A stretch of DNA of 43,356 nt. It comes from a virus. Numbering within the stretch: the first letter of the stretch is position 1; the number at the start of each line of letters is the position of its first letter. The notes under the pieces are model-generated. The model had not been told where the DNA came from. It was given only the letters and a program-made list of their open reading frames with translations, and did no database searches. The position numbers and the translations under genes are program-made. Location of the stretch: positions 1 through 43,356 of IMG/VR virus record IMGVR_UViG_3300002460_000061; one strand, written 5' to 3'. Positions 29,203 to 34,871 of this stretch are shown piece by piece.

Positions 29203-29235
29203 ATTTTTTAAAACCTTTCGTATATCACAAAATTG

Positions 29236-29290
29236 TGCTATACTACTTGGTGAAAAGAGCCGTCCGACTAAAAACGGGCGGTTTTGTTTT
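29236..29290 (+). ncRNA. Candidate tiny plus-strand RNA
   Basis: An extended -10 element TGCTATACT (29236-29244) is followed within 25 bases by a 7-bp hairpin (CCGTCCG 29260-29266 with CGGGCGG 29275-29281) and TTTTGTTTT. The predicted RNA is about 40 bases, mostly the terminator. It is antisense to the gap between two leftward genes. The -35 region is poor. Confidence 0.35.
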
Positions 29291-30840: not shown

Positions 30841-30923
30841 AACTCCCTAATGACTTTGCCCGCTCTCATGGCGGATTACTCGCCATACCGCTTTCGCGGT
30901 ACGGGCAAAATCACTAAAGAGTT
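30841..30923. other. Large branched inverted repeat (cruciform)
   Basis: The 22-base arms at 30841-30862 and 30902-30923 pair in 18 of 22 positions (AACTC/GAGTT and TTTGCCCG/CGGGCAAA are perfect). The interior holds two further stems, GGCG/CGCC and CCGC/GCGG. T runs on both outer sides allow bidirectional termination. It could also serve the nearby origin. Confidence 0.7.
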
Positions 30924-31084: not shown

Positions 31085-31227
31085 AAAAAAAAGCCCCTTA
31101 AGACTAAGGAGCTTTTCCGCCTATGCAACCTCCACTATAAGCGGAAGGAAGGCAAATCTAATCTACAAAAGTAGAAATTGAGAATAATCCACTCGGCACT
31201 GTACAGAAATGAGCTGTTAAATTCATC
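31085..31227 (-). ncRNA. Short RNA carrying a solitary Cas12a-type crRNA handle
   Basis: The predicted transcript starts at about 31227 and ends in a terminator (AAGC-x-CCTTA/TAAGG-x-GCTT with loop AGAC, 31091-31114, then eight U). On the minus strand 31179-31161 reads AATTTCTACTTTTGTAGAT, the mature Cas12a crRNA handle with stem TCTAC/GTAGA. It is followed by a 24-base guide-like segment (31160-31137). The 5' half of a full CRISPR repeat is absent. A second stem TTCCGC/GCGGAA overlaps the end of the guide. Solitary repeat units in phages are known to act as RNA anti-CRISPRs; a functional guide is the alternative. Confidence 0.75.
31161..31179 (-). repeat. Cas12a crRNA handle sequence
   Basis: AATTTCTACTTTTGTAGAT on the minus strand has every conserved base of the type V-A processed repeat. 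These are AAUU, the five-pair UCUAC/GUAGA stem and the final U, with a UUUU loop. Confidence 0.85.
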
Positions 31228-31233
31228 AAGTAC

Positions 31234-31262
31234 AGTATAGCATACTTTTTTTTAAAAATCAA
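31234..31262 (-). promoter_or_regulatory. Promoter of the Cas12a-handle RNA
   Basis: On the minus strand TTGATT (31257-31262), a 17-base spacer and TATACT (31234-31239) with an extended TGC before it are present. The 29 bases match the promoter at 32453-32481 at 25 positions. Confidence 0.8.
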
Positions 31263-31500: not shown

Positions 31501-31506
31501 AAATTC

Positions 31507-31790
31507 TGTGTCCGCGCGGCGCGGGGATAAGCTCCCGCAGAACGCAACAACAACGAGGTTGGTCGGTTATGATGTGCTAGTACATTTTTCCGACTTCATA
31601 ACGCAAAGCTCTCCTGCGCCATCTCGTGCGCTAGTTTCAACGGAGAGGCGGACACACATTATGGGAGGGTAGACGATCCTGTGAGCCGTCTGCGGTGCAA
31701 TTCCGCTTTGCCTCTGGGGTATAAAAGAACAACCAACGCGCGCATTGCAAAAGTTGTTCATCCCTGCGGGTCAAACCCCGCGCCCTCCCA
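31507..31790 (+). ncRNA. Large structured RNA with tRNA-like 3' domain
   Basis: This GC-rich segment lies in AT-rich DNA. The 5' domain is closed by TGTGTCCGC (31507-31515) and GCGGACACA (31648-31656). Inside it are hairpins GCGGG/CCCGC, GTTATGA/TCATAAC and CTCTCC/GGAGAG. The 3' domain (31663-31790) has the exact tRNA order: acceptor GGGAGGG/CCCTCCC, TA, a 4-bp D stem GACG/CGTC, a 4-bp stem with loop TGCAATT, a 49-base extra arm (GGGGT/ATCCC and GAACAAC/GTTGTTC), a T-arm with TCAAA, and A73. The loop lacks U33, so decoding is unlikely. It also lies 13 bases upstream of the VRR-NUC gene. Confidence 0.65.
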
Positions 31791-31803: not shown

Positions 31804-32172
31804 ATGATATCAAAAGAATCCATGTTGCTGAAAAGTTGTTTAGAGTTATTATCGTGGAAAAAAATTTTTCATTATCGCAATAATTCGGGAGCATTTAAAA
31901 CAGACAGGGGGGGGTTTTATAGATTTGGAGAAAGCGGGTCGCCAGATATAATCGCCATATTGAGAATAGGAGGATTATCTGCTATTCTAGGACTAGAGCT
32001 AAAAGTAAATAAAAATAAAGCAACGCCCAATCAAACTAACTGGGGGAAAAGATTTGAGAGCGAAGCCAACGGATTTTGGTTTATTATAAGGAATCTTGAG
32101 GATTTAGAGAAGTCGCTTAAATATGTCCATACTGAAGCAATGCAAATTATGCAGAAAGGGATTTTACGTTAA
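31804..32172 (+). CDS. VRR-NUC-type nuclease
   Basis: ATG 31804-31806 gives 122 residues; an upstream ATG would read through the structured RNA and is rejected. The PD-(D/E)XK core is visible: GSPDII with Asp48, LELK with Glu65 and Lys67, and Gln77 in TPNQTNWGKRF. VRR-NUC proteins cut branched or structured DNA such as Holliday junctions and often stand alone in phages. It is the only nuclease gene among the early genes. Confidence 0.8.
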   Translation: MISKESMLLKSCLELLSWKKIFHYRNNSGAFKTDRGGFYRFGESGSPDIIAILRIGGLSAILGLELKVNKNKATPNQTNWGKRFESEANGFWFIIRNLEDLEKSLKYVHTEAMQIMQKGILR

Positions 32173-32452: not shown

Positions 32453-32481
32453 TTGATTTTATCCAAAAAGTATGCTATACT
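32453..32481 (+). promoter_or_regulatory. Promoter of the 197-nt RNA
   Basis: TTGATT (32453-32458), 17 bases, TATACT (32476-32481), with extended TGC. It is nearly identical to the promoter of the Cas12a-handle RNA on the other strand. Confidence 0.8.
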
Positions 32482-32487
32482 AGTTAG

Positions 32488-32684
32488 GTAATGCGGAAAA
32501 CAGTAACAAAATAAAGAATACTTGCAAGTGTTCTTTAGGGACACCAAAAATGCCGCTCCGCATTACAGTAAAGCGGTATTTTTAATTGCCGCGACTAACG
32601 TGGTTAATGCTCGTGGAGCTATGATAGAGGTGCGCTTCTATCAGGCTATGAAGCGAGAATCCTGCATAAGCGGGACTCTTTTTT
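32488..32684 (+). ncRNA. Candidate 197-nt non-coding RNA
   Basis: The predicted start (32488) is the first base of a 9-bp stem, GTAATGCGG with CCGCATTAC (32558-32566). This stem encloses a 10-pair hairpin (AAAGAA and TTCTTT, tip loop TGCA). Downstream are GCGG/CCGC and TGATAGA/TCTATCA hairpins. It ends in a strong terminator (32656-32679, ten pairs with one mismatch, loop ATAA, then T6). No ORF of note lies within it. It could be a guide scaffold, a regulator or a decoy. Confidence 0.7.
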
Positions 32685-32743
32685 GGTAATATGATTGGAC
32701 GCGGATACCCGTAGAAATATGGGTATCCAGTTCAAAAAAAACT

Positions 32744-32929
32744 ATGGGAGAAAGAACACAAAGAATAATAAACTTTTACGCGCATGACTACAGAGATATA
32801 GCAATGAAAGAGGACGACTTGGGAAACATGCTAGAGGGGTTTTTTGAGAGTATAGATTGCGATCATGAATGCACTTCAAATTGCCGTAGAAACGGCTGTA
32901 ATTGCGATTGTGGCAATTTTCATTTTTAA
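32744..32929 (+). CDS. Cys-rich small protein
   Basis: This 61-residue protein has a C-terminal cluster CDHECTSNCRRNGCNCDCG, seven Cys plus His, suited to two metal ions. The first half is helical and acidic. It follows the 197-nt RNA on the same strand. Function is unknown. Confidence 0.5.
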   Translation: MGERTQRIINFYAHDYRDIAMKEDDLGNMLEGFFESIDCDHECTSNCRRNGCNCDCGNFHF

Positions 32930-32933
32930 AACT

Positions 32934-33206
32934 ATGAATTATAAATCATTAAAAATTGAACAGGTTGAAAATGGATACGTTGTTACCTATCTTGAAGAAG
33001 AAGATGACGGAGTTTTTGCGAAGGTTATCAGGCTTTTTGAGTTTGAGGAAGATGACGAAGAAATTGCAGAGAAAAAAACAATGGAAAATTTACTCTATTT
33101 TGTATCTGATTTTTTTGGCTTTTTTGATGATAAATTTTCATGTGATAATCTAAATATCAAATGGGATAAAAAAGGAGATGAACACGAAGACGAACGAGAG
33201 CCCTGA
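32934..33206 (+). CDS. Acidic hypothetical protein
   Basis: A start at ATG 32934-32936 gives 90 residues (MNYKSLKIEQVENGYVVTYL) with a run of acidic residues (EFEEDDEEIAEKK) and an acidic tail. A longer frame from 32865 would add a hydrophobic segment but would overlap the Cys-rich gene in another frame. The shorter start has the normal leader. Confidence 0.5.
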   Translation: MNYKSLKIEQVENGYVVTYLEEEDDGVFAKVIRLFEFEEDDEEIAEKKTMENLLYFVSDFFGFFDDKFSCDNLNIKWDKKGDEHEDEREP

Positions 33207-33258
33207 AAGAATAGTCAAGAAAGGAATTTTAGCCAATGGATTAAGAGTTTCTACGTAG
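33178..33258 (+). CDS. Possible 26-residue peptide
   Basis: This frame (MNTKTNESPERIVKKGIL and on) overlaps the end of the acidic gene. It fills the otherwise empty gap before the zinc-ribbon gene. Weak support only. Confidence 0.2.
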   Translation: MNTKTNESPERIVKKGILANGLRVST

Positions 33259-33288
33259 CCGATCATTCAATAAGAAAAATAAAAAACT

Positions 33289-33549
33289 ATGAAAAAAATA
33301 ATACAAAAAAATATGAATTTGATGTGTTGTGTTTTTTCGGAAAAAAATCTAAAGATAGCCATTGAAGTGTGTAAAGAGCTAAAAAATCAACAGAATAAAC
33401 CCTTTACTTGGGGAAAAGATAATGTATACCTAACAACCTGTCCCCACTGTAGAAAACATCTTCAATATCCAAGTATGGTACCCAAAGTAATTTGCTATAA
33501 GTGCGGGGAAATTATAGATAATATTTTAAAGTTCTCTGATCTCCTATGA
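33289..33549 (+). CDS. Zinc-ribbon protein coupled to the TnpB-like gene
   Basis: This 86-residue protein (or 78 from the second Met at 33313, which has the better leader) ends with CPHC, a 13-residue loop, then CYKCGEIID. The spacing and the CG-x-x-x-D ending recall the C-terminal zinc ribbon of TnpB/Cas12 proteins. Its stop overlaps the start of the TnpB-like gene (ATGA). That neighbour lacks its own zinc ribbon, so supply in trans is a testable inference. Confidence 0.55.
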   Translation: MKKIIQKNMNLMCCVFSEKNLKIAIEVCKELKNQQNKPFTWGKDNVYLTTCPHCRKHLQYPSMVPKVICYKCGEIIDNILKFSDLL

Positions 33550-34607
33550 AATATCTTTTACGCGGATATAACTTAAAAATATATCCAACTGAACAACAAA
33601 AGTGTACTTTCCAAAAATACTTCAACGGCGTTAATTTTGTCTATAATTGGGGACTTGAACAAAGAATCAAACACTATCAAGAAACACAGAAAACACTATC
33701 TTTGTACGAAACTCAAAAATTATTAACTTTGCTTAAAAAAGAGAAGGGGACTGCATGGCTGAATGAAGTGAACGCGCAATCATTAACCTTTGCTCTACAA
33801 CGCGTAGATAACGGCTTTAGAAACTTTTTTCGTAGAGTTAAAAAAGGTGATAAAGAGCTTGGTTTCCCCAAATTTAAATCATCAAAGATAACTGAACAAT
33901 CTTTTTATTCTCAACAGGGCAATTCCTTGAATCTTAACCAAAAGAACAAAATAATTGTTTACAGGCATAAGAAGGGAGGCAAACATCTGAATTTTTTGAA
34001 CATAATGAATGTAAAAAATATCGCTGTTTGTATCTCTTCGGTGAAATATAAAGAGGAGTTGGAGAAGGGGATTGTCAAGGGGGTTACAATCACAAGACAG
34101 AAAGACGGTAAGTTTTTTGCTTCATTGTGTGTGAATATTCCATGCGCGGCTCTGCCTAGAATAGACAAAGCCAAAAAAAGCAGTATTAAGATTGATCTTA
34201 ATACATGCAATCCTTATGTTGCATTCTCTAAAAATTTAGGGTTGCCGATAAACCATTGGGATTTTTTAAACGTAGACTTGCAAAAAATAAAAAGGCTAGA
34301 TAGAAAATTACCGCGTCAAAAGCAGGGGAGTGTGCGGCGCGAAGAGACAAGAAAGAAGCTGGCGCGGCTTCATTGTAAAATTGCAAACCGTCGAAAAAGT
34401 TTTCTAAATAATATCAGTAAAAAAATAGTTGAGAATTATAAAAAAATAGTAATAAATGATATGTATATTGCTGGTTCACTTTTACCAAAACAACGCAAAA
34501 AAACACGGGACTTTAATCGCACATTGTTGGATAAGGGAATGGGGGAGTTTAAAAGGCAGTTGGTTTATAAGGCGGCATGGTATAAACGCAAAATAATTTT
34601 GGTTTAA
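33546..34607 (+). CDS. TnpB-like protein with inactivated, truncated RuvC domain
   Basis: This 353-residue protein has the normal TnpB N-terminus (GYNLKIYPTEQQK, FVYNWGLEQR) and a wedge region with FPKFKSSK. The RuvC-I strand is SIKIDLN, keeping Asp217 but replacing the usual Gly residues. The bridge-like helix is present (RETRKKLARLHCKIANRRKS style). At the RuvC-II Glu site it reads IVIND, with Asn304 in place of Glu. It stops at YKAAWYKRKIILV, where the zinc finger and RuvC-III Asp normally follow. It should bind RNA and DNA but not cut, like the TldR repressors. A 36-nt repeat array starts 100 bases downstream. Confidence 0.8.
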   Translation: MKYLLRGYNLKIYPTEQQKCTFQKYFNGVNFVYNWGLEQRIKHYQETQKTLSLYETQKLLTLLKKEKGTAWLNEVNAQSLTFALQRVDNGFRNFFRRVKKGDKELGFPKFKSSKITEQSFYSQQGNSLNLNQKNKIIVYRHKKGGKHLNFLNIMNVKNIAVCISSVKYKEELEKGIVKGVTITRQKDGKFFASLCVNIPCAALPRIDKAKKSSIKIDLNTCNPYVAFSKNLGLPINHWDFLNVDLQKIKRLDRKLPRQKQGSVRREETRKKLARLHCKIANRRKSFLNNISKKIVENYKKIVINDMYIAGSLLPKQRKKTRDFNRTLLDKGMGEFKRQLVYKAAWYKRKIILV

Positions 34608-34707
34608 CCCTAGTCTTTATTTTTCACGATGTGTATTTTAAAGCAAAAAAAGAATATGAAGGAAAAATATGATATTAAAAATTTCCTTTAAAATAAAGGT
34701 TTTAAGT

Positions 34708-34871
34708 GTCTAATCATGTTATCCTAAAAAGAGTGTTGTAGAGAAGTGGTCTGCCCAGTAATCGTCAACGAGTCTAATCATGTTATCCTAAAAAGAGTGT
34801 TGTAGAGTCCGACGATTTCATACCATCGTCGGTTTGGTCTAATCATGTTACCAAAAAGGAGTGTTGTAGAG
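34708..34871 (+). CRISPR. CRISPR-like mini-array, three repeats and two spacers
   Basis: Two identical 36-nt repeats (34708-34743 and 34772-34807; start GTCTAATCATGTTATCC, end AGTGTTGTAGAG) are followed by a changed 35-nt last repeat (34837-34871). Spacers are 28 nt (34744-34771) and 29 nt (34808-34836). Both ends of the repeat resemble type V-A repeats (GTCTAA and TGTTGTAGA), but the left stem TTTCTAC is missing. The second spacer contains a hairpin, CCGACGAT/ATCGTCGG. A weak hairpin with T4 (34685-34703) lies before the first repeat. No adaptation genes are present. Confidence 0.75.

Follow-up and report, generated by a model that had tools for sequence, protein, structure and literature searches.

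We analysed the virus record IMGVR_UViG_3300002460_000061, in which a 43,356-nucleotide (nt) window, the whole stretch studied here and the frame for all coordinates given without a locus label, carries terminase, portal and capsid genes. On the minus strand of this window lies a short unit built around the handle of a type V-A (Cas12a) CRISPR (clustered regularly interspaced short palindromic repeats) RNA, or crRNA. Our reading, to which we give a probability of roughly two in three, is that this handle RNA would act as a decoy for a host Cas12a, that is, as a type V-A RNA anti-CRISPR (Racr) reduced to the part that Cas12a binds. The original prediction for this DNA had proposed a solitary, separately transcribed Cas12a handle, which is well supported at the sequence level, and had offered two uses for it, a decoy or a guide loaded into host Cas12a. 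The decoy use is supported by the recurrence of the unit in unrelated viruses and by the V-A Racrs that are already established.

The handle RNA unit

The handle is an exact copy of the processed V-A handle, just as had been predicted (Table 1). A first-order Markov model expects the exact word 2.2e-6 times in the window, and the pattern AATTTCTACTNTTGTAGAT has this single match in 43 kb even when 3 mismatches are allowed (0.03 expected). The site is non-coding and lies between leftward operons and a rightward block. The unit is solitary and intergenic, with no second repeat within 100 bp, and its promoter falls inside the 250 bp upstream that is the limit used for Racrs. The predicted terminator is also present, with its stem and run of U, but it starts 42 nt past the handle and 18 nt past the 24-nt guide-like segment, not about 50 bases past the latter as had been stated. 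The transcript predicted from these signals is about 141 nt long (about 31227-31087), and the handle stem is retained when all of it is folded (pair probabilities 0.79-0.90; fold z -2.7). Both the sequence and the stem that Cas12a would recognise as its pseudoknot handle are in place; this 5' handle is the primary element bound by Cas12a (PMC10200996).

Of a normal repeat of 36 nt, the unit has no 5' half, again as predicted. The 17 nt upstream of the handle are unlike 59 natural half-repeats, the nearest of which is 10 mismatches away, no closer than for shuffled sequences (p 0.83), and a full-repeat solitary unit was rejected on this ground. On the other side of the handle, the guide-like segment does have the length that had been claimed for it, but only about the first half of it is single-stranded. 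Its nucleotides 14-21 pair with 25-32 and 8-11 with 39-42, which places the 3' part in a hairpin. An Rfam search returned nothing at the gathering threshold, and weak matches to BTnc231 and Phe_leader were dismissed as reflections of the hairpin and the terminator. Directly upstream of the handle promoter there is a second small-RNA-like unit (31401-31270, minus strand), with a promoter (TTGCAA-17-TATGAT), a long near-perfect hairpin and a terminator (fold z -4.9).

Cas12a handles in other viral contigs

We scanned IMG/VR for exact copies of the handle, allowing any base in the loop, and obtained 14 + 88 stretches, which reduce to 75 distinct places (L numbers are the labels of loci in this analysis). 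The word with a T in the loop was found in 14 stretches, compared to 3 for the same word in reverse order, which served as control. Non-coding DNA holds 61 of the 75 handles where about 15 would be expected (p 6e-30), given that positions drawn at random from the same contigs are 80% coding and 20% non-coding. Promoters (at least 10/12 within 60 nt) and terminators (within 110 nt) were scored at the 57 handles with full flanks, with 1,140 random intergenic sites as the control. A promoter was found at 11 of these handles (0.95 expected), a terminator at 17 (1.15 expected), and both at 8, compared to none of the control sites. As far as sequence can speak for function, we have shown that the promoter-handle-terminator arrangement is under selection at the level of the class.

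Most of these units also resemble that of the window in what they leave out. In L208, L177, L240 and L178 only 6 nt separate the end of the -10 box from the handle, thus transcription would start about at the first base of the handle and there is no space for a 5' half-repeat. A recognisable natural 5' half was seen at only about 6 of the 61 non-coding handles, judged against a set of natural half-repeats that is biased to T-loop handles; L218 and L245, two units with A/G handles, are counted as handle-only yet have a natural 5' half, and L245 at position 288 is a true two-repeat array that runs on into its second repeat. The published screen for Racrs (SRUFinder) asks for at least 90% coverage of a known repeat and a bit score of at least 41.1 (PMC10651486), and since most viral handles do not have the 5' half they were out of its reach. 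The numbers published for RNA anti-CRISPRs are based on repeats of nearly full length, a design under which the handle-only class would be missed. In the terminated units the first 24-26 nt past the handle are more structured than 1,020 real V-A spacers (p 0.006 and 0.003), which is partly due to their GC content (0.42 compared to 0.36 in the real spacers).

At least four units are composites. The element GTGGATTGAAAC, which we take to be the 3' end of type I-C repeats, follows a small hairpin in L007, L195, L180 and L216 and stands 14-16 nt before a V-A handle that has another hairpin downstream. All four were scored with a terminator, and L198 carries a version with one mismatch. The stems of the composite hairpins differ in sequence while their pairing is kept (CAAGCC/GGCTTG, CAGCC/GGCTG), which argues that the composite is a real RNA. 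The motif GTGGATT occurs within 120 nt upstream of 6 of the 61 non-coding handles (0.43 expected), 4 of them being clear I-C tails. Having a I-C tail and a V-A handle in one transcript would be understandable in a decoy but not in a guide, and such units suggest RNA inhibitors of several systems. The GTGGATT upstream of the handle in the window could be a remnant of such a tail, though the likeness is suggestive only.

Two other arrangements were seen in the scan. Closely spaced pairs of Cas12a handles that look like mini-arrays occur in L009 (7594), L178 (4613/4655), L190 (4628/4668) and L245 (288), and in L178 a single promoter and a single terminator enclose both handles. Solitary V-A repeats of the Patescibacteria type with their full 36 nt occur in the virus contigs L005/L013 and L199.

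Decoy, guide or chance

The closest known systems are RacrVA1-3, V-A Racrs made from solitary repeat units that block Cas12a experimentally, inhibiting a system from Moraxella bovoculi (Camara-Wilpert et al. 2023, PMC10651486). Like these, the unit in the window is non-coding in a viral genome, has a promoter upstream and a single V-A repeat element, has no adjacent cas genes and would be expected to sequester Cas proteins. Unlike them, it has its own terminator and a hairpin in place of a guide, and some of its relatives are fused to a I-C mimic. The handle RNA alone is a truncated relative of the V-A Racrs that keeps 19 of about 36 repeat nt (53%) and so falls below the published limits on repeat coverage and bit score.

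A decoy could work as follows. A small non-coding RNA would be transcribed from the handle promoter to the terminator, and Cas12a should bind its handle, probably cutting just 5' of it. The enzyme would then hold a short RNA whose guide has no relevant match, with half of it tied up in a hairpin, and would thereby be diverted from the crRNAs with which the host targets the phage. We infer each of these elements, namely transcription, binding and processing by Cas12a, inhibition, and the presence of Cas12a in the host. Cas12a may be the enzyme easiest to decoy with a handle-only RNA, because its crRNA binding and processing go through the handle alone.

The alternative use as a real guide, by which the phage would supply host Cas12a with a 24-nt spacer of its own against a rival phage, a plasmid or a host gene, appears unlikely. 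The segment between handle and terminator is spacer-like in length, viral mini-arrays against rival viruses are known (PMC11656645), and L009, L178 and L245 show a handle spacing of this kind. Like those mini-arrays, the unit is a CRISPR repeat element carried by a virus and would make use of the host's Cas proteins. However, it consists of one truncated repeat, and with no second repeat the 3' end of a guide would be left undefined. The search for a protospacer also came back empty, with no match at useful E-values among phage or plasmid records, none in 9 array-bearing genomes, none in 287 Patescibacteria genomes with up to 3 mismatches, and none within the window or in any of the loci collected for this analysis. 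The lack of a target together with a guide whose 3' half lies in a hairpin favours the decoy over guide use. One short match inside an endonuclease gene of the window (31916-31927, plus strand), a TTTA protospacer-adjacent motif (PAM) with 8 nt matching the seed of the handle RNA (TAGATTTG), is probably due to chance.

It is still less credible that an ordinary phage small RNA or leader matches the handle by chance, or that the handle is a dead remnant of a host array: the word is possible in AT-rich DNA and its reverse-order control does turn up in 3 virus contigs, but only 2e-6 copies were expected in the window, the handle sits between a promoter and a terminator in a layout that many viruses have far above chance, and an array remnant would retain a half-repeat rather than these signals.

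Several observations do weigh against the decoy. Most of the first 13 nt of the guide-like segment are free of pairing, so they could still act as a seed on DNA. The promoter had been described as strong, and while the promoter itself stands and recurs at a second place in the window, it scores just 9/12 against the consensus. We found no relative of the phage that covers the handle region. The window's handle word occurs mostly in Patescibacteria arrays, and a profile of the phage capsid found no relative in 380 Patescibacteria genomes. There was also no convincing match to the phage among 1,020 V-A spacers.

The searches behind these points give some further detail. Starting from the terminase, L140 was the only true relative, and the replication protein, used to look for relatives of the early region, gave none. 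The capsid search gave L159-L166, which share structural modules only. In L163-L166 the capsid gene is interrupted by an insert that is likely a self-splicing intron and encodes an HNH-type endonuclease. Among the V-A spacers the best match to the phage (22/23; L120, Azambacteria) was rejected as evidence for a host, having no TTTV PAM and low complexity, and so was one in L092 (23/26), where the PAM is TCTG. The phage uses the standard genetic code and Gracilibacteria read TGA as Gly, thus the host should not be one of the Gracilibacteria.

The neighbouring type V locus

About 1.3 kb from the handle RNA the phage carries a type V locus of its own (32453-34871), which the original prediction does not mention and which may be the more unusual feature of the two. 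It begins with a near-copy of the handle RNA promoter, and the two promoters have an exact 17-nt core in common (AAAAAGTATGCTATACT; 1.4e-5 expected by chance). Behind it lies a predicted trans-activating crRNA (tracrRNA), the anti-repeat of which stands well above its runner-up elsewhere in the window (16/27 complementary). The duplexes between tracrRNA and repeats are computed at -36 to -44 kcal/mol (-43.7 for repeat 3), compared to -28 at best for shuffled repeats. The effector matches Cas12f in PADLOC (4.5e-37), the TnpB family in NCBIfam (1.9e-51) and solved TnpB structures (1e-36). It retains the RuvC-I Asp, but its RuvC-II Glu is replaced by Asn (VINDM), and its open reading frame (ORF) ends ahead of the zinc finger and RuvC-III, with no continuation in other frames. 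We therefore predict that it is nuclease-dead. The array has a period of 64-65, and its repeat ends in GAGTGTTGTAGAG at the 3' end and has no Cas12a stem. The locus is a phage-borne, tracrRNA-dependent compact type V system, probably without nuclease activity.

Table 1. Positions of the features discussed; entries with L numbers refer to other viral contigs.
Feature	Position	Strand	Remark
Type V-A (Cas12a) crRNA handle AATTTCTACTTTTGTAGAT	31161-31179	minus	exact, 0 mismatches to 19-nt processed handle
Handle RNA promoter, TTGATT-17-TATACT with extended TG	31234-31262	minus	54 nt upstream of handle
GTGGATT, possible type I-C repeat-tail remnant	31186-31192	minus	6 nt upstream of handle; suggestive
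24-nt guide-like segment TAGATTTGCCTTCCTTCCGCTTAT	31137-31160	minus	no target found
Hairpin over 3' part of guide-like segment	31119-31153	minus	fold prediction
Handle RNA intrinsic terminator	31087-31118	minus	14-pair stem, then U8
Twin promoter TTGATTTTATCCAAAAAGTATGCTATACT	32453-32481	plus	near-copy of handle RNA promoter
Predicted tracrRNA	32482-32702	plus	strongly structured, z -5.4
Anti-repeat, 3' end of tracrRNA	32674-32700	plus	23/26 complementary to array repeat 3
353-amino-acid Cas12f/TnpB-like effector	33546-34607	plus	profile and structure matches
Three-repeat CRISPR array	34708-34871	plus	36-nt repeats at 34708, 34772, 34836/7; spacers 28-29 nt
Composite of I-C tail and Cas12a handle, one predicted transcript	L007 9354, L195 5703, L180 2659, L216 3545, L198 1624		

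Comparison to known systems places the locus near subtype V-F (Cas12f) and the TnpB-derived V-U systems, with which it has in common a compact TnpB-like effector, a tracrRNA with a 3' anti-repeat and an array. It departs from them in its short effector with a broken RuvC triad and no zinc finger or RuvC-III, in having no adaptation genes and in its place within a phage contig of 43 kb. Compact type V effectors of viruses have been described near arrays before (PMC12607003), and natural nuclease-dead Cas12 and TnpB repressors are known too, namely Cas12m (V-M; PMC11656645) and TldR (PMC13418256). As in these repressors, the inactivated RuvC suggests a protein that binds and silences but does not cut, though the truncation of the effector is more severe. 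The tracrRNA and the CRISPR array presumably also set the locus apart from Cas12m and from the guides of TldR. Relatives of the effector in phages are below 32% identity and none was confirmed in virus contigs, while 333 Patescibacteria genomes gave one distant TnpB relative. The array spacers had chance-level matches to phages (best E 0.8).

Because their promoters are nearly identical, the handle RNA and the tracrRNA are probably co-expressed. The same likeness, at a distance of 1.3 kb, could be taken to mean that the phage's own effector uses the handle, either as one more crRNA or to regulate its assembly. We consider this very unlikely, since the phage's own repeat has no Cas12a stem and uses a tracrRNA, which Cas12a does not require, and handle plus guide pair with the tracrRNA or the array no better than shuffles do. 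With the handle RNA read as a decoy, the common promoter suggests instead that host Cas12a is disarmed and the phage effector switched on together, the latter presumably silencing rather than cutting by virtue of its broken RuvC. A wider claim would join all of this: that the phage disarms and replaces, with a Cas12a decoy and the tracrRNA of its own dead type V gene-silencing system under twin promoters, and that handle-only decoys, some of them fused to I-C elements, are a large class of RNA anti-CRISPRs hidden from repeat-based screens. This joint claim is possible, but we hold it tentatively.

Two things are new here and open to test: the class that handle-only and composite units form, and the occurrence in one phage, under twin promoters, of such a unit and a presumably dead type V locus. 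No report of this combination turned up in the literature we searched. Why viruses took pieces of CRISPR RNA, and apparently not Cas proteins, as inhibitors has been called an enigma in a review (PMC11656645). A phage that has a decoy RNA as well as a degenerate type V effector of its own, both apparently driven by one type of promoter, makes this enigma testable. In addition, a short natural RNA that switches Cas12a off would be a useful laboratory tool.

Some smaller features of the region were noted as well. An 86-amino-acid ORF (33289-33549) with a CPHC...CYKC zinc ribbon, weakly matched in Pfam, runs 4 nt into the effector gene, and as the effector has no C-terminal zinc finger of its own one may speculate that this ORF supplies one in trans. 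Spacer 1 of the array (34744-34771) is alike at 20/28 positions to the large leader hairpin that precedes the replication gene (30866-30893, minus strand), which could be a target for self-regulation or chance. A GC-rich segment closed by GTCCGC...GCGGAC lies upstream of the rightward operon (31506-31668, plus strand; fold z -1.7). Finally, a third and weaker copy of the promoter, AAAATTGTGCTATACT, is found at 29216-29244 (plus strand), with a terminator-like hairpin directly after it.
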